Assembly (NCBI RefSeq): GCF_003350405.1
Contig: NZ_QQAW01000007.1
Coordinates: 124,001-188,000 of the forward strand
Length of the DNA stretch: 64,000 bases
Direction: 5' to 3'
Origin: Gluconacetobacter liquefaciens
GTDB taxonomy: Bacteria > Pseudomonadota > Alphaproteobacteria > Acetobacterales > Acetobacteraceae
Under the pieces are notes generated by a model. It had not been told where the DNA came from, searched no databases, and saw only the letters and a list, made by a program, of their open reading frames with translations. Within the stretch, counting starts at the first letter, position 1. Each line of letters begins with the position of its first letter. A program made the translations under genes and the position numbers. Positions 8,898 to 20,883 of this stretch are shown here, one piece after another.

Positions 8898-11030
8898 TCA
8901 GCGGAGCTGATCGATAGATTCGACGTGCTTCTCCACCTCGTCGCGTGTCAGCCACAGGTCGCGCAGGGTCTTGCTGCTGAGGTAGGAGAGCTGGTCGGTG
9001 TGATGCGGCGAGCCCGGCTGGCTGGAATTGCCATAGCTCAGCAAGCCCTTTGCCTTCATCGGTGTAGAAAAACTGACAAGCGATACCCAGGTTTCACCAT
9101 GGAACGGCGTCCGTTCGCCGTCTTTCATCGGCCCCCAGGTGATGGTCCGAAAAACGCCGGTATTGCCGAAACCACCATTGCCCGGCAGATTCACATTGCC
9201 CAGATGAAAGCGCGAGACCGCGCCGAAGGGCCGATCAATCGCGCCATAAAGCCGCTTCGTCTCCGTGACGGCCTGGGCGAGAAGGTCGACTGCCTGTGTC
9301 GGGTTTTTCAGGCCCGATGGGGTGTGAATCGGATCGTCCAGTGACCAGGATATCGCGAAGTTCCCGGAGTCGCCAAACTTAGGGCCCATGAACAGACGGG
9401 CCCATGTTTCGAATAGCAGGGCGCCCCTGCTATCGGCATCGTCCGCGCCATCCCAGTTACGCAGGACCCGGACGGCATCCCGGACATCGCGGCGCCTGTC
9501 CGTCGCGGCGGCGGCCAGAAGCTCCGGCAGAATGCGCTGCGCCAGCAATGCGTGCGTATTGAGTTTTTTCGACACGATCTCATCAAAGGACATCTTGTCG
9601 TTACCCGCCAGCATCGTCGTCGACATCTGGGCCCGGAACGTCATCGGTCCTTTCACGGCAATATAAGCCGGATAGGCCTCGGGATATAATGCGCGCGGAT
9701 AGGTCGCTACCCACGGAGGATCGTTGGCGTTCTGAACAAAACCCGTCGAAGGGTCAATGATTTTTGGAAGGTCTTCGTATGGGACGATGCTTTTGGGAAT
9801 GTTCCCGGATCTGTCGCCGGCAACGTAGCTGTTCCAGTCGTTGAAATCTCCGTCCGCGTGCTTCGGAAGGATGCCGTTGTTCAGATACATGATATGACCG
9901 TCATGATCCGCATAGACGATGTTGAACATCGGAATCTGCAGTTTTTTGAGAGTGGCCTGGAACTGGTCAAAATTATGCGCCAGCGCCATGTCCCAATATT
10001 GCCGAAGCATGAAGGGACGATCGAGGCCGGCCACGTGGAGGGCAAACGCGGTACCGTCGGCCCGTCTGAAAACCGGTCCCTGCACGGCATAATTCTGCGC
10101 GAAGCTCTTAGTCGTTACGGTCCCGTCCGGCAGCTTCACCTTGTAGGACAGCGTCTTGGTCGTGAACGCACGCTTCTTGCCGTCCAGACGATATCCATCG
10201 CCATTGGGCGTCAGCGTATAACGGGTCGCACCCAGGATCGTATTGACGGTATTGGTAAAGGCGACATCCTTGGTGAAAGCAAAGCGCAGGATCGGAAGCC
10301 CGACCTGTGTCGCACCGTAAATGCTGAAGCCCGGCCCGCTGACCTGGGCTTCGTAATAGGTGTAGAAGGCAGTAGCCCATGGCAGATGCGGGTTGGCCAG
10401 CAGGACCGCGTGACCGTCCGTGGTGCGTGAGGGGGCAATCGCCCACGCATTCGACCCACCCGCCGCGCGCGACGGCGGGTCGGCCAGCATTTTCTCTTCA
10501 GCGGCGATATAGACGTAATTCATCAGCCGAAGAGCATGGGCAATGACATCCACGCCGTTCACGGGCAGGACGGGCCTGACGTCGCTGGCGAGTTCGTTCG
10601 GATGGCGTGCCGCGTAATCGTTGATGCCACGTGCGAACGCATCCATATCCTTGCGGAAATCGGGAGATTGCTGCGCGTACCAGGTCTTTGCGCGGTCATA
10701 CACGCCATTGGCGAGAAGCCAGCGGTCGGAGTCCTCCTCTTTCGGCCCCCAATACTCCGCTGCCCGTCCACGCGCCGTTCCGTATAGCCGCAGCAGGATG
10801 TTGCCGTGGCTATGGGCCTGCGCCCACCCGAAACCATAGAAGGCCCCGGCCTCGGTCCGGGCATAGACATGCGGAACCCCGAACGTGTCCCACAGAATCT
10901 CTCCCTGGCTCGCCCCCGTTGCGGCGGCCGATGCCTGGCCGCCCATGGCCAGGGACGGGAATACAATCCCGAGACAGAGGGCGGATTTCCAGTTTTGACC
11001 AAAGAAAGACAAAAGAGTTCTCCTGAACAT
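8898..11030 (-). CDS. Penicillin acylase family protein (Ntn hydrolase, exported)
   Basis: A 710-residue secreted amidase precursor of the S45 family, which includes penicillin G acylases, acyl-homoserine-lactone acylases and aculeacin acylase. A signal peptide ends near residue 36. The alpha-chain motif ILWDTFGVPHVYA and AQAHSHGNILLRLYGTARGRAAEYWG are typical. The spacer ends at GG/SNAWA, placing the N-terminal nucleophile Ser of the beta chain at about residue 193; LANPHLPW follows. The beta chain ends with a normal HTDQLSYLSSKTLRDLW region, so the gene is full length. Periplasmic autoprocessing is expected. Quorum-signal or amide scavenging is more likely than penicillin as the real role, but cannot be decided here. 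Confidence 0.9.
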   Translation of the reverse strand: MFRRTLLSFFGQNWKSALCLGIVFPSLAMGGQASAAATGASQGEILWDTFGVPHVYARTEAGAFYGFGWAQAHSHGNILLRLYGTARGRAAEYWGPKEEDSDRWLLANGVYDRAKTWYAQQSPDFRKDMDAFARGINDYAARHPNELASDVRPVLPVNGVDVIAHALRLMNYVYIAAEEKMLADPPSRAAGGSNAWAIAPSRTTDGHAVLLANPHLPWATAFYTYYEAQVSGPGFSIYGATQVGLPILRFAFTKDVAFTNTVNTILGATRYTLTPNGDGYRLDGKKRAFTTKTLSYKVKLPDGTVTTKSFAQNYAVQGPVFRRADGTAFALHVAGLDRPFMLRQYWDMALAHNFDQFQATLKKLQIPMFNIVYADHDGHIMYLNNGILPKHADGDFNDWNSYVAGDRSGNIPKSIVPYEDLPKIIDPSTGFVQNANDPPWVATYPRALYPEAYPAYIAVKGPMTFRAQMSTTMLAGNDKMSFDEIVSKKLNTHALLAQRILPELLAAAATDRRRDVRDAVRVLRNWDGADDADSRGALLFETWARLFMGPKFGDSGNFAISWSLDDPIHTPSGLKNPTQAVDLLAQAVTETKRLYGAIDRPFGAVSRFHLGNVNLPGNGGFGNTGVFRTITWGPMKDGERTPFHGETWVSLVSFSTPMKAKGLLSYGNSSQPGSPHHTDQLSYLSSKTLRDLWLTRDEVEKHVESIDQLR

Positions 11031-12153: not shown

Positions 12154-12582
12154 GTGGCAGATATTTACGATAAGGTTCAACGGCTTCGCTCCGATCTCGA
12201 GACGCTCGGCGCCGATCTGCGGGAGGCCGACACAGCACTGCGGACCGAATTCAAATCGTGGGGCGCGAAGAACGGCGCCAAGGCGCTCCGCAAGACCGCC
12301 AAGCGCCTTCAGGAACTCGGCGACACGGCTGTGAGCCAGGCCAACGACCTGAACAAGAAGGTGTTGGAAAAGGTCGGGGACTCGCAGGAGCGTGCGCAGC
12401 AGGTCTCCGTGCTGCTGGGCGAGACTGCGGCACGGCTCGAAAAGAGCAATGCCGTGGCCAAATCCGGCGGCATCGTCCGCACGCTGGCCGGCGTAGCCAT
12501 CGGACTGGCCGTCGTGGGGGGCATCGCAGCACTCGCGAAGCGGTTGTGCAGCAAATCGGAGCCTTACAAGCCCGGACACTAA
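12154..12582 (+). CDS. Coiled-coil protein with C-terminal membrane anchor (DUF883/ElaB-like layout)
   Basis: About 142 residues: a long helical, charged part (DKVQRLRSDLETLGADLREA, later KTAKRLQELGDTAVSQANDL) and one C-terminal transmembrane helix (VRTLAGVAIGLAVVGGIAAL) before a short basic tail. The layout resembles ribosome-anchoring ElaB/YqjD proteins, but I cannot confirm that family. GTG at 12154 is preferred because AGGAGA lies seven bases upstream; the ATG two bases earlier is in another frame that soon stops. The gene ends at the junction with the broken ligD sequence. Confidence 0.72.
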   Translation: MADIYDKVQRLRSDLETLGADLREADTALRTEFKSWGAKNGAKALRKTAKRLQELGDTAVSQANDLNKKVLEKVGDSQERAQQVSVLLGETAARLEKSNAVAKSGGIVRTLAGVAIGLAVVGGIAALAKRLCSKSEPYKPGH

Positions 12583-12605
12583 AAACCGCACACGGGCAGG
12601 GGGGC

Positions 12606-12779
12606 GCGCACGCCTCCCGGCCGATCCGCCCGGTGCTGTTCCGTCGCGTGAAGACGCAGCTTATCCGCGTCCATGCCGGCGGCCTGGCGTTTCGCGACTG
12701 GGCGGCGGAGGGCAGGCTGCGGCACACTTCGTTCCGGGGCATTCGCGACGCCGAACCAGCATCGGAGATCGTAAGTAAA
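12606..12779 (+). pseudogene. Residual end of an ATP-dependent DNA ligase domain (LigD)
   Basis: In frame with the polymerase domain that follows. The translation LFRRVKTQLIRVHAGGLAFR continues DWAAEGRLRHTSFRGIRDAE, which corresponds to the last strand of the OB-fold of LigD-type ligases (F.GWT..GRLRHASF.GLR). The ligase nucleotidyltransferase core and the phosphoesterase domain that would precede it are absent: the sequence instead runs into the end of the coiled-coil gene. This marks a deletion that removed the 5-prime part of ligD. Confidence 0.62.
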
Positions 12780-13682
12780 ATGTCCGCTCCCGAAGCAGGT
12801 TCCGCCCGATCCAGGGCCGGACAGAAATGCACCGTCGCCCTGACCCATCCGGACCGCCTTTACTGGCCGGATGCCGGCGTCACCAAGCAAGGTCTGGCCG
12901 ACTACTACGCCGCCATATGGCCGCGCATCGCGCCGTTCATCGTCGATCGTCCATTGGCGCTGCTGCGCTGTCCGGAAGGCATCGACGGGCCGCGCTTCTT
13001 CCAGAAGAACGGCTGGAAGGGCATGAACGCCCACATCCGGACATTGGACGATCCGGCCACCGGCACGGCCGAGCATCTGATCGGCATTCACGATCTCGAC
13101 GGCCTCATGGGTTTGGTGCAATCGGCGGTGCTGGAGATCCATCCCTGGGGCGCCGCCTGTCGCGACTGGGAGCGGCCGGACCAACTGGTCATGGATCTCG
13201 ACCCCGGCGAGGGCGTGGCATGGGAACGGGTCATCGACGCTGCGCGCGACGTGGGCGAGCGCCTGGAGGCATCCGGCCTCACGCCCTACGTCAAGACCTC
13301 CGGCGGAAAGGGGCTGCACGTCGTGGCGCCTCTGAAACCCGAGGCGGATTGGGAAACGGTAAAGGCGTTCTCGCGAACGCTGGCCCAGACAATGGCCGCC
13401 GACCGCCCGGACCGCTACATCGCGACGATCACCAAAGCGAAGCGCCACGGGAAGATCCTGCTCGACTACCTGCGCAACCAGCGAGGCGCCACCTCCGTCG
13501 CGCCATACTCGACCCGCGCTCGCGCCGGGGCCCCTGTCTCGATGCCCCTGTCCTGGGATGAACTGGGGCAGATTACCGGATCGGCGCAGTTCACGGTCAA
13601 CAATGCCCTCACGAGGCTTACCGCACTCCGTGCTGACCCATGGGCGGCATTTCACACGGCGCGCCGCCCGATCCAGCCCTGA
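12780..13682 (+). CDS. ligD: LigD polymerase domain, remnant of the NHEJ ligase/polymerase
   Basis: Encodes the primase-polymerase (PolDom) module of bacterial non-homologous end joining, about 300 residues from the ATG at 12780. Conserved parts are present: LTHPDRLYWPDAGVTK at the entry, RCPEGIDGPRFFQKN, the catalytic acidic pair in VMDLDPGEG, TSGGKGLHVVAPL with the conserved His, and the LLDYLRNQRGATSVAPYS block with the third acidic residue. The normal protein is about 800-900 residues with phosphoesterase and ligase domains; here only the last piece of the ligase domain remains upstream. No ku gene is in the window. The ribosome site at 12780 is weak, so expression as a stand-alone polymerase is possible but unproven. 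Confidence 0.82.
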   Translation: MSAPEAGSARSRAGQKCTVALTHPDRLYWPDAGVTKQGLADYYAAIWPRIAPFIVDRPLALLRCPEGIDGPRFFQKNGWKGMNAHIRTLDDPATGTAEHLIGIHDLDGLMGLVQSAVLEIHPWGAACRDWERPDQLVMDLDPGEGVAWERVIDAARDVGERLEASGLTPYVKTSGGKGLHVVAPLKPEADWETVKAFSRTLAQTMAADRPDRYIATITKAKRHGKILLDYLRNQRGATSVAPYSTRARAGAPVSMPLSWDELGQITGSAQFTVNNALTRLTALRADPWAAFHTARRPIQP

Positions 13683-13933
13683 CAGCCACGTTTTATTACT
13701 TACACGGCGGTCGGCATCGCATAGCGCAGTCCCTGAAGCAGTTGACCGAAGCCCGCATGCGCCGAAAGGCCGCGCCATTTCGCTCGGCCATGTCGATGCT
13801 GGTCCTCTTCATCAACCGGGCAGAGCGCTCGCTCTCGCCGGAAAGACGCTCCATTCTCAACCGGGCAAAAGGGGAACTCCGTCGGGTCTTCGGGGCTCCC
13901 TGGACTGACCCTGCATGCCAAATCTGCTATTGA
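13640..13933 (+). pseudogene. DUF3175 protein, N-terminally disrupted
   Basis: From about 13715 the frame reads HRIAQSLKQLTEARMRRKAA, then PFRSAMSMLVLFINRAERSL and a closing AKGELRRVFG. This is the C-terminal two thirds of DUF3175 proteins (DP..IA.SLKRSAE..RRKA.P..SAMSMLTFYINRAG). The conserved N-terminal part (W...V...S.ALDLE.GVF) is missing: the reading frame overlaps the end of the LigD gene instead. A short product from the internal ATG at 13757 is possible, but the gene is probably dead. Confidence 0.58.
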
Positions 13934-14232
13934 CCGGCATTCTTCCTGCGGGTTTCAGCCGCTTTCTTCGCCGATGCCGAGCGTTCTTCCGGCGAGCGTT
14001 CAGCGGCCGCCGCGCCTCCCAGCCTGCCGCCCTTGCGGGAGGGGTCATGGGTTACAGCGTGCCCCCTGCCGGAACCGCTCTTCTTGCCGCCACCGGTCTC
14101 CTTGTTGACGGTGGCCCACGCCCGGCGTTCGGCTTCCTCCCCGCTGACGCCACGCTGCTCGTAGCTCTGCTCGATATGCTCGGCCTGTCTCTTCTGCTTG
14201 TCCGTATAGGCGGACTTGTCGCCACGCGGCAT
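13927..14232 (-). CDS. Small basic protein of the plasmid-stabilisation annotated family
   Basis: A 101-residue, highly charged soluble protein starting MPRGDKSAYTDKQKRQAEHI and containing YEQRGVSGEEAERRAWATVNK, the hallmark of a widespread short family often labelled plasmid stabilisation protein. The tail is Gly/Ser/Lys-rich followed by a KKAAETRRKNAGQ helix. The ATG at 14232 starts the conserved block; upstream in-frame sequence has no homology. Biochemical function is not established, and its occurrence near stress genes does not make this DNA a plasmid. Confidence 0.75.
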   Translation of the reverse strand: MPRGDKSAYTDKQKRQAEHIEQSYEQRGVSGEEAERRAWATVNKETGGGKKSGSGRGHAVTHDPSRKGGRLGGAAAAERSPEERSASAKKAAETRRKNAGQ

Positions 14233-14635
14233 GGTCGATGCTCCCGGTCCCAAGAGTGGGCGCGGCCCCTGGTTCTTTGCAGGCACGCGACCGCACCCGA
14301 TGACAAGGCCGGACAGCGGGAAAAGTTCTCCGGGCTGCAAACGAGGGAACGCATTCCCTATGGATCGATAAAAGGAAATGATTATACCTTATAAGGCGTC
14401 TTCTGATGTTCAATCAGATGATTTCGTTTCAATATTTTATGCCGGAATGATGAATAAATAGAAAATATATATATTATATCATCAAGAATATTATAAAAAA
14501 CAACTTTGACGGGACATGATTTCGGAACCTCTCATCAAGCCATGCGTAGCAGCAGGACAATGTTGGGCGTGGCGGTCGATCTCGCGGAACGGCGATCCCG
14601 GCGCCCTGTCTGCAATGGCGGCGAGGAGAGAGAGC
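14233..14635. other. AT-rich divergent promoter region upstream of the catalase
   Basis: A 403-base gap between the small basic protein (reverse) and katE (forward). The block 14380-14512 is strikingly AT-rich for this genome, with an alternating AT run around 14466-14480, and probably holds promoters for both genes. A GAGGAGAG ribosome site for katE lies at about 14622-14629. No gene was recognised here. Confidence 0.55.
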
Positions 14636-16753
14636 ATGACCATCAAGGGAAAGAAGCCGGGAGCCGCGCCGAAGAAGGCCCCGGATGCGGCCGGAGCCGG
14701 TGGCGAGACGCATCAGGTCGCTGGCGGCGACGTGGCAACGCTGACGACAGCCCAGGGCGCGCCGGTCGCCGACGACCAGAACACCCTACGTTACGGCGCC
14801 CGAGGCCCCGCGTTGATGGAGGATTTCCATTTCCGCGAGAAGATCTTCCATTTCGACCATGAACGTATCCCCGAGCGTGTGGTCCATGCCCGTGGCTACG
14901 GCGCGCATGGCTATTTCGAACTGACCGACAGCCTGGCCGATGTGACGCGCGCGGATATCTTTCAGCGCGTCGGCGAGCGCACGCCGGCCTTCGTGCGGTT
15001 TTCGACCGTCGCGGGCGCCAAGGGCTCGTTCGACCTGGCGCGTGACGTGCGCGGCTTCGCGGTCAAACTCTATACGCAGGAAGGCAACTGGGATCTCGTT
15101 GGTAACAATATCCCGGTTTTCTTCATCCAGGATGCGATCAAGTTTCCGGACATGGTCCATGCGGTCAAACCGGCACCGGATCGTGATTTCCCGCAGGCTC
15201 AGTCGGCCCACGACAATTTCTGGGACTTCATATCGCTGACGCCGGAAAGCCTGCACATGATCATGTGGGTCATGTCGGACCGCGCCATTCCGCGCTCCTT
15301 CCGCTTCATGGAAGGGTTCGCCGTGCATACGTTCCGCCTGCTCGATGCGCAGGGTCGCTCGATCTTCGTGAAATTCCACTGGAAACCCAAGCTGCGCCTG
15401 CAATCGGTGGTCTGGAACGAGGCGGTCAAGATCAACGGCGCCGACCCCGATTTCCACCGTCGCGATTTGTGGAACGCCATCACCAGCGGCGATTTCCCGG
15501 AATGGGAGCTGGGGGTTCAGCTTTTCGACGAGGCTTTCGCCGAGAAATTCGCGTTCGACGTGCTCGACCCCACCAAACTGATCCCGGAGGAAGACGTGCC
15601 GGTGCGGATCGTCGGCCGGCTGGTGCTCAATCGCGTGGTCGATAATTTCTTCGCCGAGACCGAGCAGGTGGCCTTCTGCACCCAGAACGTGCCGCCAGGC
15701 ATTGATTTCTCGAACGATCCGCTGCTCCAGGGGCGCAATTTTTCCTATCTCGATACCCAGATCAAGCGATTGGGTAGCCCCAATTTCACCCATATCCCCA
15801 TCAACGCGCCCAAATGCCCGATGGCCCATTTCCAGCAGGACGGGCACATGGCAATGCGCAACCCGATCGGCCGCGCCAATTACGAACCCAATAGCTGGGG
15901 CGAAGCCGGCGGGCCGCGCGAAGACCCGGTGCGCGGCTTCCGCAGTTTTGCGGCGGAGGAAACCGGCCCCAAGGTCCGGCTTCGCCCCGAGAGCTTCGCC
16001 GACCATTACAGCCAGGCGCGGCAATTCGTGATCAGCCAGACGCCCATTGAGCAGAAACATATCGGCGACGCCATCACCTTCGAACTCAGCAAGGTCGAGC
16101 GAGCGGACATCCGCGCCCGCGTCGTCTCGCATCTGCGCCATATCGACGAGCACCTGGCGGCAACGGTCGCCGACGGATTGGGCCTGCCGTTGCCCGAACC
16201 GGCGAAGGCGGCCCGGCCCGTCATCGCCGATCTGCCCCCCTCGAACGCACTGAGCATTGTCAGGAACGGTCCTCACAGCTTCGCCGGCCGCAAATTCGGC
16301 ATCCTTTTGACCGATGGGGCGGATGCCGGCCTGTTCGATGCCCTGGTCACGGCGGCGGAAAAGGAAAAGGCCATCTATGAAATCGTCGCGCCGAAGATTG
16401 GCGGCGTCACCCTCTCCGATGGCAGGGCCCTGCCGGCACAGCAGAAGATTGATGGCGGTCCCTCCGTGCTGTTCGACGCCGTGGCGGTGATAACTTCGGC
16501 CGATGGGGCGACGCTGCTTGCCGGGGATGCGGCGGCCAGGGATTTCGTGACCGACGCCTTCGCCCATTGCAAATTCATCGGCTATGCCGCGGAAGCGATC
16601 GCGCTGTTCGCGAAAGCCGGCCTGGCCGATGATCTCGACGATGGCTGCATGGTTCTGAAGACCGATGCCGACGTTGACGGCTTCGTGACGGCATGCCATG
16701 CGCTTCGCTTCTGGGATCGCGAAGCGAAGGTCGCTCCTGACGCTGGAGCGTGA
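14636..16753 (+). CDS. katE: Large-subunit catalase HPII (hydroperoxidase II)
   Basis: Decomposes hydrogen peroxide; a clade 2, about 705-residue haem catalase. Visible landmarks are the distal His ([15 protein letters not shown], near residue 84), the distal Asn ([15 protein letters not shown]) and the proximal haem Tyr in [18 protein letters not shown]. From about residue 560 there is the extra flavodoxin/DJ-1-like C-terminal domain of HPII enzymes ([20 protein letters not shown]). The ATG at 14636 is chosen because GAGGAGAG lies just upstream; the frame is open further 5-prime but without homology. Its stop overlaps the start of the next glycosyltransferase, so the catalase may be transcribed with the four-gene cassette. 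Confidence 0.95.
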
Positions 16754-17880
16754 TGGTCATGCCGGGTGGGGCTCTCGCCGTCACGCGGCCGACCTACGCC
16801 ATCGCCATACCGGCTCGCGACGAGGAAGGGCGCATTCTCTCGTGCCTTGAGGCGTGCCGCGTCGCGATGGCGCGGTGGCCCCAGCCCGGGGTCATCGCGC
16901 TGCTGGTCAATAACACCGGCGACGATACCGCCGCCCGCGCCCTTGCCTGGGCGCGGAAAATCGGTGCGCCGCTTCGGCTGGCGGAATGGCGCTTTCCTGA
17001 TGCAACCGCCCATGCCGGCACCGCGCGCCGAACCGCTTTCGATTTCGCCCGCGCCCAGCTTGGAACTGGCGGATATCTGCTGACGACGGACGCGGACTCC
17101 CGGCCCGCTCCGGACTGGGTCCATGCCAGCCTGGCCCCTCTCGCCGCCGGTCGAGCGGCGATGGTATGCGGCACGATAGAACTGGACCCGTCGGAATTCG
17201 CGCAATTGCCGCCGTGGGCGACCGCCAATGGCGCGGTCGAGGACCTCTACGGCCGCACCGCGCGAGAACTCGCCAGCCTGCTCGATCCCGACCCCCTCAA
17301 TCCCTGGCCGTTTCACGGCACGATATCGGGCGCCAACCTCGCCATGTCCGTCGCGGCCTATGACCGCATCGGCGGCGCGCCGATCGTGCCCCATGGGGAA
17401 GATCGCGCACTGGTCCGCCGTTTTCTCGACCACGACTTGCCTGTCCTTTACAGCGATGCCCCGCATGTCGTGACATCCTGCCGGCTGGAAGGGCGGGCAC
17501 CGGGCGGCATGGCCGATACCATCGCCTCCCGCCTCGCCGGCGGGCAACATTGGTGCGACGAGTCCCTCGAACCCGCGCAGCAGACCTGGTTCCGGGCGCA
17601 TGTGCGCGCCCGGCTGCGCAGGGCGTTTCGCGACGGCCGGCAACGGGATGCGGCCCTGAGCGAGGCCGGATTATCCGCCGGGCAGCGCCGGACGGCACCA
17701 ACCTTCACCTGCTTCGGCGCGCTATGGGCATTTGTCGAAACCACTAGTCCCCGCCTCGCACGTCGTAGGATGTCGTGGGAAGATATGGCGGCCGAACTCC
17801 CCCTTCTGGAAGCACTTCGCGACGAAGAGGCCGCGGCCGCGACGGGTGCGCGGGCCCGGCAGTCTGGAGAGATCGCATGA
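16753..17880 (+). CDS. GT2-like glycosyltransferase, first gene of a four-gene cassette
   Basis: Soluble GT-A fold transferase of about 375 residues. YAIAIPARDEEGRILSCLEA opens the nucleotide-sugar fold, LLTTDADSRPAPDW carries the DxD metal motif, and GANLAMSVAAYDRIGG with HGEDRALVRRFLDHD resembles the acceptor ED motif of GT2 enzymes. No membrane helices. It starts on the A of the catalase TGA and overlaps the next gene by ATGA, so the whole block 16753-20372 is coupled. The neighbours (flavoprotein, PIG-L deacetylase, NodS-like methyltransferase) suggest it acts on an N-acetylated sugar intermediate, but donor and acceptor are unknown. Confidence 0.82.
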   Translation: MVMPGGALAVTRPTYAIAIPARDEEGRILSCLEACRVAMARWPQPGVIALLVNNTGDDTAARALAWARKIGAPLRLAEWRFPDATAHAGTARRTAFDFARAQLGTGGYLLTTDADSRPAPDWVHASLAPLAAGRAAMVCGTIELDPSEFAQLPPWATANGAVEDLYGRTARELASLLDPDPLNPWPFHGTISGANLAMSVAAYDRIGGAPIVPHGEDRALVRRFLDHDLPVLYSDAPHVVTSCRLEGRAPGGMADTIASRLAGGQHWCDESLEPAQQTWFRAHVRARLRRAFRDGRQRDAALSEAGLSAGQRRTAPTFTCFGALWAFVETTSPRLARRRMSWEDMAAELPLLEALRDEEAAAATGARARQSGEIA

Positions 17881-19025
17881 CCGGCCGTCCAGCCCTCTCG
17901 CCTTCCCGGCAGTGCCCAGACCCAGGCGGGCATGACGCGCTGATGCGGTGGCTGGCGAGTCGGGCCGACAGCGCCGAGACGGATCCCGCGGGCCTCGCGC
18001 CCGAGATCGACGCCATCCGACAGGTCGGCCTGCTGGCAGCCTGTCTTCCGCATAGCGAAGGCGGGGAGGGGCTGGGGCTCGGCGTGGAGGCCGCACACGA
18101 TACATGCACATTGTTGCGGCGGCTGGGCCACGCGAATCTCTCGGTCGCCCGGCTGTTCGAGGGGCATATGAATGCGGTGAAACTGCTGCATCTGTATGGT
18201 GGCCCGAATGTGTGGGAGCGCGTTGCGCCGGCGATCGGGGACGGTGCTCTGCTCGGTGTCTGGGGCGCGGACGGCCCCCGTCCGCTTCGCGGCTTCCGTG
18301 CCGGCGGCCGCCTGCGGCTGCAAGGTGAGAAAATCTTCGCCTCCGGCCTGGGGTTTGTCCATTTCGCGGTCGTGACTCTGCGCGACGGGAACGACGATGA
18401 CGGACCATCCCGGCTCGCGCTGGTCGATGTATCCGATAGTGCCCGTCAGGATCTCTCCGCCTGGAAAGCATCGGGGATGCGCGCCACGGCCTCGGGCCGT
18501 TTCGATTTTACCGGACTGGAGATCGACGCCGATCACCTCGTCGGCCAGCCGGGAGATTATATGCGCGAGCCATATTTCGAGGGCGGCATCTGGCGCTATT
18601 GTGCGGCCCATCTCGGCGGGGCGGAGGCGTTGGTCGATCTCTGGCGCGACGCCCTGACCAGCCGTGGCCGGCTGGATAACCCAATGCAGCTTGCCCGTTA
18701 TGCGCGGGCAGTCGCCCTCTGCCATGCCATGGCAAGCTTGCTGCGGGACACGGCCCAGACCGTCGAAGCCGTGGCAGCGAAGCCGCAGGACATGATCAAC
18801 GAAGCGGTCGCTGCCGCCCTGCTGGCACGCCAGTTCGTGGAGGAAAGCTGCGTCCAGATACTCCAGCTTGCGGAGAAATCCCTGGGCACCGCTGCCTATG
18901 TCACCGGCACTCCGATCGAACGCATCCGGCGCGACCTGTCGATGTTTCTGCGCCAGGCCACGCCCGACGCCAAACTGCTCAAGGCAGGCCGCCTGCTGAC
19001 CGGCGCGCAGGGGGCGCCGTGGTGA
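17877..19025 (+). CDS. Acyl-CoA dehydrogenase-fold flavoprotein
   Basis: About 382 residues with the three-part acyl-CoA dehydrogenase fold: an N-terminal helical domain (GLLAACLPHSEGGEGLGLGV), a central beta domain (GRLRLQGEKIFASGLGFVHF) and a C-terminal helical bundle. The C-terminal motif reads LAEKSLGTAAYVTGTPIERI then RRDLSMFLRQATPDAK. The FAD-contact arginines are kept, but the IYEGT-type loop that carries the catalytic Glu of classical dehydrogenases is not seen. It could therefore be a monooxygenase or a desaturase-like member rather than a beta-oxidation enzyme. Coupled by ATGA to the glycosyltransferase and overlapping the next gene. Confidence 0.8.
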   Translation: MTGRPALSPSRQCPDPGGHDALMRWLASRADSAETDPAGLAPEIDAIRQVGLLAACLPHSEGGEGLGLGVEAAHDTCTLLRRLGHANLSVARLFEGHMNAVKLLHLYGGPNVWERVAPAIGDGALLGVWGADGPRPLRGFRAGGRLRLQGEKIFASGLGFVHFAVVTLRDGNDDDGPSRLALVDVSDSARQDLSAWKASGMRATASGRFDFTGLEIDADHLVGQPGDYMREPYFEGGIWRYCAAHLGGAEALVDLWRDALTSRGRLDNPMQLARYARAVALCHAMASLLRDTAQTVEAVAAKPQDMINEAVAAALLARQFVEESCVQILQLAEKSLGTAAYVTGTPIERIRRDLSMFLRQATPDAKLLKAGRLLTGAQGAPW

Positions 19026-19765
19026 CGCCCTTTGCCGAGGGCGCGATCGTCCGGGCCGGACGGCAGGCCCGCACCATCGCGATCGCGGCACTGGCCGGCC
19101 CCGGCAACGTGCTGGTGCTGGCGCCGCATCCCGATGACGAATCGCTGGGTTGCGGCGCCGCCGTCGCGGCCGCCAGCCGTGCCGGCAAGGATGTGCTGGT
19201 CGTCGCGCTCACCGATGGCCGGCTGTCGCACCCCCATTCGCGGCTCTTTCCACCCGGCAGGCTGATTGCCCTCCGCCAGGCTGAACTGCGCGAAGCCGTA
19301 CGCATTCTGACGCAGGGCACCGGCAAGACGTTCCTGCTCGGCTTCCCCGACCAGGGCGCGCCCGCAACCCCGGCCGACCGCGCGGCGGTAAGCAACCGGC
19401 TGCTGCATCTGATCGACACCCACACCGTAAGCGCGCTCTGGACGACCTGGGAGAAAGACCCGCACCCCGATCACCGCTGCGCCGCCGCGATCGGCCGCGC
19501 GGTCGCCCATGCGCGTCCCGGCCTCAAACTGTGGCGCTATCCGGTCTGGGGCCGTTTCATCGAGGACACCCCGGAGGCGGAAGATGTTCTCTACCGTTTC
19601 GACAGCACCGCGCTCCAACCCGAAAAACGCGCGGCCATCGACGCGCATCGATCCCAGATGACGGCGCTCATCCCCGACGATCCCGATGGCTTCGTCATGG
19701 ACCCGCAGGCACGGCGCCATTTCCTCGAAAGTCCGGAATTGTTCATTGGGGACGGTCATGTCTGA
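19019..19765 (+). CDS. PIG-L (LmbE) family zinc deacetylase
   Basis: About 248 residues of the PIG-L family, which removes the N-acetyl group from GlcNAc-containing substrates (as in GPI anchors, mycothiol and bacillithiol). The zinc motif HPDDE is at about residues 37-41 (LVLAPHPDDESLGCG) and the second metal motif is HPDHR near residue 148. No signal peptide or membrane helix, so it is cytosolic. Two adjacent GTG codons (19019, 19022) can serve as start; both overlap the stop of the previous gene. The deacetylase gives the clearest chemical clue of the cassette: an N-acetylated sugar substrate. Confidence 0.88.
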   Translation: MVTPFAEGAIVRAGRQARTIAIAALAGPGNVLVLAPHPDDESLGCGAAVAAASRAGKDVLVVALTDGRLSHPHSRLFPPGRLIALRQAELREAVRILTQGTGKTFLLGFPDQGAPATPADRAAVSNRLLHLIDTHTVSALWTTWEKDPHPDHRCAAAIGRAVAHARPGLKLWRYPVWGRFIEDTPEAEDVLYRFDSTALQPEKRAAIDAHRSQMTALIPDDPDGFVMDPQARRHFLESPELFIGDGHV

Positions 19766-20372
19766 ACGGACCGCCCGGTTCGACCGGCTCTATGCCGGCG
19801 ATATCGACCCGTGGCAGTTCCGCAGTTCGGTCTATGAGAGGGATAAATACCGGGCGACCATGGATGCCCTGCCGCGGCCGCGTTACGCCCTCGCGATCGA
19901 AGCCGGCTGCTCGATCGGCGAACTGACGCGGCTGCTGTCCTGGCGCTGCGATCGTGTGATCGGCATCGACGTCTCGTCAATCGCGCTGGAAGAAGCGGTG
20001 CGACGCAATGCGGATCGGCCGAACACCACCTTCCGCCAGGGCGAATTGCCTGCCGCGTGGGCCGCCGAATATCCGGTTGACCTGATCGTGCTGTCGGAAG
20101 TCCTGTATTTCCTCGCGCCGCAGGAAATCGAAGACCTCGCGAACCGGGTCGCGGCGCACTGGTGCCCCGGCGGCGATTGCGTGCTCGTCAATTATCTCGG
20201 CCCCACGGCGGAGGCCCTGCAAGGGGCCGAGGCAGCGGATCTCTTCATTGCGGCCATGACGGCGCAGCCTGACGTCCGATCCACCATCAGAGTGACGAAA
20301 GACCGATACCGGCTCGATCTTCTGACGCGCGGCATATCGCCGCCAGCATACGCCGCCGGATCAGGCCGCTGA
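19758..20372 (+). CDS. NodS-like SAM-dependent methyltransferase
   Basis: About 204 residues, class I Rossmann methyltransferase resembling NodS, which N-methylates the deacetylated glucosamine of Nod factors. The SAM motif I is AIEAGCSIGELTRLL, motif II is GIDVSSIALEEAVRR, and DLIVLSEVLYFL matches motif IV of the NodS group. The start DRLYAGDIDPWQFRSSVYER is also NodS-like. The ATG at 19758 overlaps the deacetylase stop. Following a deacetylase, it probably methylates the freed amine. The last 86 bases overlap the end of a convergent gene. Confidence 0.86.
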   Translation: MSERTARFDRLYAGDIDPWQFRSSVYERDKYRATMDALPRPRYALAIEAGCSIGELTRLLSWRCDRVIGIDVSSIALEEAVRRNADRPNTTFRQGELPAAWAAEYPVDLIVLSEVLYFLAPQEIEDLANRVAAHWCPGGDCVLVNYLGPTAEALQGAEAADLFIAAMTAQPDVRSTIRVTKDRYRLDLLTRGISPPAYAAGSGR

Positions 20373-20883
20373 CCGGGCGGATCAGATACCAGTAGGGCGT
20401 AAAAAGGCGCCTAGCCCTGGCGGTGACGCAGAAAACGCGCGTCTCTGTCACCAGCCTGCGTCGATGGCCTGGCCCAGGGTGCAGGGTAAAGCCAAGCACG
20501 AGCTTGCAGACGTCATCCTGCCGATCGGCCTGGAAGATCGCAGGTGCGGGAATCGCGCAAAGTCCATAGTCCGCCTGCCAGAATGCACCGATCAGGCCGT
20601 AGACGATCGCCGTGTCGTCCCTCCGTTCGAGCAACGTGAAATCGCTGCGATCCAGAGGGCGTCCCTGCGTTTGGCCCAAGAGCCGGGCCGGCACTTCCCG
20701 CAGCCGGATCGCCATGCGGGTCAGCCGGTCATCCTGAGTGCGATAGGCGGCTACCGCATTCATGATGCGCCGAGCCGGCGCGGCGATGTCGATATGATGC
20801 CGTTCGCTGAAATCGAAACGCGGAACGAACTGATCCAGCGGGTTCATCATTCCGGCAGACGATATCCATCGCCGCGGTGCCAT
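20287..20883 (-). CDS. START/SRPBCC-like protein of unknown function
   Basis: About 198 residues. I recognise only the pattern of a START-like family: FDFSERHHIDIAAPARRIMN at the N-terminus, DFTLLERRDDTAIVYGLIGA in the core, VTETRVFC and the terminal YWYLIRPVSGLIRRRMLAAI. Probably a lipid- or hydrophobe-binding cytosolic protein. The ATG at 20883 has GGGAGG eight bases upstream. It follows the phosphohexomutase on the same strand and its 3-prime end overlaps the convergent methyltransferase gene by 86 bases, which is unusual in this otherwise tidy region. Confidence 0.6.
   Translation of the reverse strand: MAPRRWISSAGMMNPLDQFVPRFDFSERHHIDIAAPARRIMNAVAAYRTQDDRLTRMAIRLREVPARLLGQTQGRPLDRSDFTLLERRDDTAIVYGLIGAFWQADYGLCAIPAPAIFQADRQDDVCKLVLGFTLHPGPGHRRRLVTETRVFCVTARARRLFTPYWYLIRPVSGLIRRRMLAAICRASEDRAGIGLSSL

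Follow-up and report, generated by a model that had tools for sequence, protein, structure and literature searches.

Described systems that invite comparison with a four-gene cassette in Gluconacetobacter liquefaciens include Nod-factor synthesis through NodC, NodB and NodS; the bacillithiol and mycothiol pathways, which pair a glycosyltransferase with a PIG-L enzyme; and the amino-sugar N-oxygenases or nitrososynthases KijD3, DnmZ and ORF36, which act on deoxysugars in antibiotic clusters. The cassette occupies positions 16753-20372 of the window, a 64,000-nucleotide stretch (positions 124,001 to 188,000 of contig NZ_QQAW01000007.1, assembly GCF_003350405.1) of a 4.17-Mb genome, and encodes a GT2 glycosyltransferase, a flavoprotein with the acyl-CoA dehydrogenase (ACAD) fold, a PIG-L (LmbE) zinc deacetylase and a NodS-like class I S-adenosylmethionine methyltransferase (MT). 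On balance we consider it probable that this is a conserved biosynthetic module making a modified amino-sugar glycoside in the cytoplasm, with a flavin monooxygenase among its proposed steps. On the best reading, the pathway would yield an amino-sugar glycoside that has been de-N-acetylated, N-methylated and oxidised by a flavoenzyme; it would resemble Nod-factor synthesis in part, and thiol synthesis not at all. The GT2 would place an N-acetylated sugar (GlcNAc or similar) on an acceptor; PIG-L, or in one actinomycete clade a NodB-like CE4 enzyme, would strip the acetyl group; the MT would methylate the freed amine; and the flavoprotein, as a two-component flavin monooxygenase, would oxidise the product at the amine nitrogen (compare KijD3 and DnmZ on amino sugars) or at a carbon. 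The substrate class, this order of steps and the reaction of the flavoprotein are what we infer from the analysis below.

The likeness to the Nod-factor genes lies in the presence of a GT2, of a predicted sugar de-N-acetylation and of a NodS-like MT, and in CE4-type operons whose deacetylase has NodB as its best model. The cassette differs in that its GT2 looks soluble, that a flavoprotein is added, that PIG-L replaces CE4 in most loci, and that its NodB and NodS scores stay under the equivalog cut-offs. At E 0.1 the cassette GT2 matches no NodC model in NCBIfam, and the best NodC score in the window genome is 33.2 bits against a cut-off of 550, which no control genome exceeded either. The deacetylase of the cassette is a PIG-L enzyme and not NodB. 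NodA had no match in the window genome, an uninformative result given that no control genome matched either. The initial annotation had seen a mirror of Nod-factor logic built from unrelated enzymes; the analogy survives as logic and, in the CE4 clade, partly as family kinship, whereas the defining Nod features fail, since the GT2 is not NodC and the NodB and NodS scores fall short.

All four reading frames are intact and run head to tail with overlaps on the forward strand, 3' of a catalase gene. They are GT2 (16753-17880; PF00535, 33.2 bits against a cut-off of 23.3; GTG at 16750 is an alternative start), the flavoprotein (17877-19025; PF08028, 35.5 against 22.7), PIG-L (19019-19765; PF02585, 82.2 against 28.2) and the MT, a probable N-methyltransferase (19758-20372; PF05401 NodS, 46.2 against 24.0). 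The junctions overlap by 1 nt at catalase/GT2 (TGATG), 4 nt at GT2/flavoprotein (ATGA), 7 nt at flavoprotein/PIG-L and 8 nt at PIG-L/MT, and GC at third codon positions is 0.76-0.80 for all five genes, catalase included. These scores and junctions bear out the four family calls and the single overlapping unit behind a catalase that had been proposed from the sequence, and the accompanying statement that no acyltransferase, sulfotransferase or transporter is encoded holds for the four genes. None of the four proteins has a membrane segment. NCBIfam models (NodS, BshB, SfnB and others) all score far under their cut-offs, and the cassette proteins therefore receive no named function.

The cassette is a real conserved unit. 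Three sets of loci were examined. Set A used PIG-L as bait in a one-genome-per-species collection and comprises the best 80 of 389 relatives. Set B comprises 40 hand-chosen Pseudomonadota loci found with the flavoprotein (ACAD) as bait, from 27 of 34 matching Pseudomonadota genomes and 13 of 48 matching Acetobacteraceae; one of these, L126, is partly masked. Set C holds 32 ACAD-bait loci from other phyla (24 of 25 actinomycete, five of six cyanobacterial and three of four Bacteroidota matches); the three omitted matches are loci already in set A, and L201 and L083 are seemingly one record. In set A, the ACAD gene lies within 3 kb in 75 of 80 loci, the MT gene within 3.5 kb in 77 and the GT2 gene within 5 kb in 71; three, two and four of the respective misses are close to contig ends. 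Beside the ACAD gene of set B stand MT in 40/40, PIG-L in 35/40 and GT2 in 34/40 loci, and in set C the counts are MT 30/32, GT2 28/32, PIG-L 17/32 and CE4 13/32. The order ACAD-PIG-L-MT is almost fixed, while GT2 may come before, after or opposite; in Deinococcus radiodurans ACAD-PIG-L is present with the MT one gene beyond. Scattering of the four genes in relatives had been named beforehand as the outcome that would count against a cassette, and the linkage in all three sets is the opposite of that.

At E 1e-30, ACAD-positive genomes number 48/150 in Acetobacteraceae, 34/398 in Pseudomonadota, 4/198 in Bacteroidota, 25/246 in Actinomycetota and 6/146 in Cyanobacteriota, prevalences that may be too low, as only a few ACAD candidates were scored per genome, and in which weak matches may be ordinary ACADs, generic members reaching 84-90 bits. 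Five Acetobacteraceae matches score 114-123 bits; two of them are pieces of split genes, and those in G058 and G134 are the sole match of their genome. Pairwise protein distances, computed on 102 non-redundant loci with length limits that exclude fragments, are correlated in six of six pairs of proteins (r 0.69-0.83; 0/1000 permutations as high), as expected if the four proteins were inherited jointly, to which a common species tree could add. Among 14 genomes of the window genus, surveyed for PIG-L, five carry the window type (77-100% identity), five another type (41-46%) and four none. In a midpoint-rooted ACAD+MT tree, in which the close relative L002 stands in for the window's own genes, the window type clusters with Bartonella tamiae, Paracoccaceae and G046 (from the window's own family) and not with most Acetobacteraceae copies; the cassette thus seems to be mobile between lineages.

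A few loci are noteworthy in their own right. A Methylobacterium plasmid (L086) has an ACAD gene without PIG-L, MT or GT2 in the fetched stretch, possibly a relic, or a flavoprotein used by itself. At L128 (2851-8921) MT-ACAD follows a sucrose-phosphate-synthase-like gene, another putative glycosyltransferase and a gene resembling GT2, as judged by eye, with no deacetylase seen. The ACAD of L068, on a contig titled Acidobacteria bacterium, is placed identically to that of G080, from the window's own family, and the record is probably mislabelled.

The strongest evidence for an N-acetyl amino-sugar substrate comes from the replacement of the deacetylase. The window PIG-L, the sole PIG-L match of its genome, belongs to the family both by its Pfam score and by its zinc-site motifs, HPDDE and H-x-D-H, which are intact and invariant in 37 alignment rows; across all loci they occur in 122/129 and 129/129 PIG-L sequences, respectively. 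A Rubrobacter plasmid operon instead has a CE4 polysaccharide deacetylase, with no PIG-L annotated. Actinomycete loci divide into 13 of the CE4 form, 10 with PIG-L and one with neither, and in set C the two deacetylases are mutually exclusive: the 13 CE4 loci lack PIG-L and the 17 PIG-L loci lack such a CE4. CE4 motifs (TFDD and HxxxH) are intact in 14/14 sequences, L083 and L201 probably being one record. The Rubrobacter enzyme has NodB as its best NCBIfam model (113.4 bits against a cut-off of 240), and in PDB it matches for the most part deacetylases of chitin and peptidoglycan. A single clade (SH-aLRT 100; seven rows after dereplication) unites the CE4 loci in the ACAD+MT tree, and this suggests that PIG-L gave way to CE4 once. 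The CE4 and PIG-L folds are unrelated, and the activity common to both families is the hydrolytic removal of N-acetyl groups, chiefly from glucosamine residues. With CE4 standing where PIG-L does elsewhere, these are probably two DEACETYLASES with one job, the shared step being de-N-acetylation of a sugar. The comparable PIG-L enzymes of known pathways, teicoplanin deacetylase Orf2, BshB and diacetylchitobiose deacetylase, match the cassette PIG-L at family level but belong to other pathways with other neighbours and score 22-36 bits, the best match being the hypothetical 1uan (47.7). Two proteobacterial loci also carry a second, more distant PIG-L 3' of GT2 (L130, 11249-11929; L132, 5617-6300; 135 and 142 bits).

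A glycosyltransferase, a PIG-L enzyme and a methyltransferase together recall N-methyl-bacillithiol, and the cassette might in principle make a low-molecular-weight thiol of the mycothiol or bacillithiol kind, possibly N-methylated, as a redox buffer beside the catalase; the PIG-L does match BshB1 (51.8 bits, cut-off 182.5) and BshB2 (47.7, cut-off 195.25) weakly. Yet BshA and MshA are GT4 enzymes where the cassette has a GT2, none of the four genes encodes a cysteine ligase, and the window genome yielded no BshC in a search whose control was positive in 3 of 14 genomes. We regard a thiol product as highly improbable, and the suggestion of mycothiol-type synthesis made in the initial annotation is not supported.

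The next proposed step, methylation, is coupled to deacetylation by fusion: PIG-L and MT are a single polypeptide in seven of 159 loci (five of nine Bacteroidota, one alphaproteobacterium and one actinomycete), the fusion in L030 being confirmed by Pfam. The MT residues D17, P18, W19, E27, E48, C51 and G54 are invariant in 33 rows. The best PDB sequence matches are 4isc (67 bits) and, lower, NodS itself (3ofj, 39 bits), and for the Rubrobacter MT the best NCBIfam model is NodS (74.6 bits against a cut-off of 300). The window MT falls within the broader Pfam NodS family; since it reaches 55.1 bits against the cut-off of 300 for the NodS equivalog, we call it NodS-like and not NodS.

The GT2 is predicted as a clean GT-A domain (pLDDT 95) in which D113, D115, E216, D217 and R244 are invariant over 47 rows. 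Against PDB sequences its sole matches are two weak ones (E 0.05-0.06), both to regulators of the TetR family. By fold it matches WrtF, TarS/TarP and SpsA over about 180-200 of its 375 residues (WrtF, Z 22.1 over 181 residues; TarS, Z 20.1 over 198). No hydrophobic segment is long enough for a membrane helix, the top 19-residue hydropathy being 1.14.

The four enzymes might instead modify a single sugar within an exopolysaccharide or capsule that nearby glycosyltransferases assemble. A GT4 gene lies nearby in 4/80, 5/40 and 1/32 loci of sets A, B and C; like CE4, Ku, LigD and the reductase discussed below, GT4 was searched with one query sequence, which distant homologues could escape. A Novosphingobium locus has GT4, GT2 and a weak GT28-like match (21.1 bits, cut-off 22), and a neighbour family that includes a GT2-like gene, as judged by eye, recurs in 17 set A loci. 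In the available part of one report, Sphingomonas melonis has EcfG-dependent glycosyltransferase genes, which are not tied to the cassette (PMC6599016). Against surface decoration, most loci have one such GT2 and no such GT4 within 5 kb, and all four proteins lack a membrane segment. It seems to us unlikely, if less so than the other alternatives weighed here.

The oxidation is the most open part of the proposed pathway. The flavoprotein structure is predicted with pLDDT 93.9, and Foldseek returns TdsC at the top, then a mixed list of DszC, MsuC, KijD3 and the nitrososynthases DnmZ and ORF36, plus dehydrogenases. A sequence profile run against PDB sequences is led by DszC (83 bits), TdsC (78) and MsuC (77), followed by two chains named acyl-CoA dehydrogenase type 2 (76.5; 5z8t is titled flavin-containing monooxygenase), KijD3 (76) and, from 72.6 bits downward, further dehydrogenases. 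KijD3, DnmZ and ORF36 thus share the ACAD fold and rank among the best profile (69-76 bits) and fold matches, but at about 20% identity; DszC, TdsC and MsuC, the best profile matches, have a His and a Ser in common with the cassette flavoprotein but act on sulfur substrates. These residues, H97 (42/42 rows) and S156 (41/42), align with active-site residues of DszC, although the His equivalent to H97 is also present in two paralogues of the window genome; the third, His391 of DszC, lands near an invariant Gln of the cassette family and differs.

A true acyl-CoA or acyl-ACP dehydrogenase would lead elsewhere: it would make an unsaturated acyl group while GT2, PIG-L and MT build the sugar head of a glycolipid resembling a lipo-chitooligosaccharide. 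The Pfam domains are those of acyl-CoA dehydrogenases, dehydrogenases reach Z 37.1 among the fold matches, and public plasmid records give relatives that name. What speaks against it is the catalytic base. In a true dehydrogenase from the window genome the IYEGT motif retains the catalytic Glu, opposite which the cassette family has Gln (Q360) in 42/42 rows; the alignment there is uncertain by one residue, and position 361 is never Glu either, so that an MCAD-type Glu was not seen in any of the 42 rows. Residue 239, tentatively assigned as the IVD-type position without an aligned IVD sequence, is Trp in 35/42 rows and Glu in none. Moreover, the four genes include no acyltransferase or acyl carrier. 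A glycolipid of this kind appears to us quite unlikely. The flavoprotein had been expected to oxidise or desaturate something; oxidation is kept, and acyl-CoA-type desaturation is not preferred, with no Glu seen at the MCAD-type position or at residue 239.

The residues make a group D flavin monooxygenase the probable identity of the flavoprotein, ahead of an acyl-CoA dehydrogenase. A homologue of a ferredoxin/rubredoxin-reductase-like Rubrobacter gene lies 3' of MT in 12 of 13 CE4 loci, the 13th being cut by a contig end, as if the flavoprotein might need reducing power there. According to the portions available of PMC5481743 and PMC6165268, group D enzymes take reduced flavin from an NAD(P)H reductase and include N-hydroxylases as well as the glycoside N-oxygenases KijD3 and DnmZ. 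That the cassette enzyme oxidises the nitrogen of the methylated amine is an attractive but unproved idea. The earlier logic of glycosylation, deacetylation and methylation is meanwhile supported. A role in sulfone metabolism was considered from the weak SfnB and DszC matches; in L125, one of four loci whose neighbours were read, the cassette adjoins an SfnB-like ACAD and, judged by eye, a gene resembling luciferase, and this was judged coincidental.

Several observations weigh against an N-methylated, flavin-oxidised amino-sugar glycoside. Foldseek entries named acyl-CoA dehydrogenase also rank high (5gj7 at rank 10, 6u1v at rank 14), structural Z scores are tied (monooxygenases up to 37.7, dehydrogenases up to 37.1), and 5gj7, at 76.5 bits, stands above KijD3 in the sequence profile. 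No homologue of the reductase-like gene was found in PIG-L-type loci with the single query, and the reductase components described in the available part of PMC6165268 are small flavin reductases of 16-19 kDa, unlike the CE4-locus gene. As to the other steps, many UDP-GlcNAc enzymes match the GT2 fold, but the fucosyltransferase WrtF leads with others close, and no donor is called; PIG-L and CE4 enzymes can use other substrates, and the CE4 matches in PDB include the acetyl-xylan esterase 2cc0; and the NodS equivalog cut-off is missed widely, leaving N-methylation a prediction. A deacetylase was not seen at the thresholds used in L125, L126, L127, L128, L143 and L225, although L143 retains a 31-bit PIG-L piece and L126 is the partly masked locus; L219 has the ACAD only, and L209 is without MT. 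The distance correlation alone, finally, cannot tell joint inheritance from each gene tracking the species tree.

The flavoprotein of Deinococcus radiodurans plasmid 3 (L082, 6708-7925) has a 400-residue N-terminal extension for which Pfam gave no match and PDB none of significance. At L061 (7492-8733) a homologue of the extension (334 bits) is encoded on its own, some 2.5 kb from the PIG-L of that locus. Judged by eye, the extension may resemble a clan GH-A glycosidase.

Around the cassette, the window contains a large-subunit (HPII-like) catalase on the forward strand (14636-16753; probable start ATG 14636, with a longer frame from 14516), a LigD primase-polymerase domain protein of DNA end joining upstream (12258-13682, forward; PF21686, 307.8 bits) and a Usp protein; upstream of these stress genes is a penicillin-amidase family protein on the reverse strand (8898-11030; PF01804, 396.7 bits). 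The catalase (PF00199, 587.6 bits, cut-off 25.0) also has Catalase-rel and Catalase_C domains and scores 916.3 bits against the HPII cut-off of 1102 in NCBIfam. It is probably co-transcribed with the cassette while lying outside its core. A catalase occurs within 10 kb in 23/80, 5/40 and 1/32 loci of sets A, B and C, counts that have no chance control; it was therefore set aside as a pathway member and is a frequent neighbour in some lineages only. LigD primase-polymerase is near in 5/80, 4/40 and 0/32 loci, and Ku in 5/80, 3/40 and 0/32. A weak candidate for an EcfG (general-stress) promoter, one mismatch from GGAAC-N16-CGTT, lies at 14524-14548 on the forward strand, about 90 bases 5' of the catalase ATG; with 68 sites that carry one mismatch or none when both strands of the window are counted, chance is a real possibility. 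Two exact GGAAC-N15-18-CGTT sites outside the cassette match chance (mean 1.69 expected), and EcfG control was not adopted. No sigma-70-like promoter was found within 13700-20600. In the available parts of the two reports, the EcfG general stress response includes Ku and catalases in S. melonis (PMC6599016) and ku-ligD and catalases in Sphingopyxis granuli (PMC7083833). A stress setting is plausible for the alphaproteobacteria, not in general, and the module may have a role in stress survival.

These threads could be drawn together into a more specific product, an N-oxidised N-methyl amino sugar glycoside of the hydroxylamine or nitrone/nitroxide type that would trap radicals or otherwise protect the cell. 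Its cassette would span Proteobacteria, Bacteroidota, Cyanobacteria, Deinococcus and Rubrobacter relatives, in alphaproteobacteria often beside a catalase and sometimes beside genes of non-homologous end joining, and its Nod-like logic would have evolved with two unrelated deacetylases. In so detailed a form we consider the proposal distinctly unlikely.

The cassette is real, conserved, chemically coherent and, as far as our literature searches reach, undescribed: no description was found in the open-access literature, though one may have been published elsewhere, and the genes are labelled by family only in those public plasmid records that we saw. A gene set that has stayed together in five or more phyla probably yields something useful to the cell. 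The exchange of PIG-L for a NodB-like enzyme implies that two unrelated deacetylases should take the same substrate, and identifying that substrate would reveal the metabolite. Should the flavoprotein turn out to oxygenate amino sugars, a large group of proteins is misnamed in the databases as acyl-CoA dehydrogenases. The cassette would also bear on the origin of the deacetylate-then-N-methylate steps of Nod-factor synthesis.

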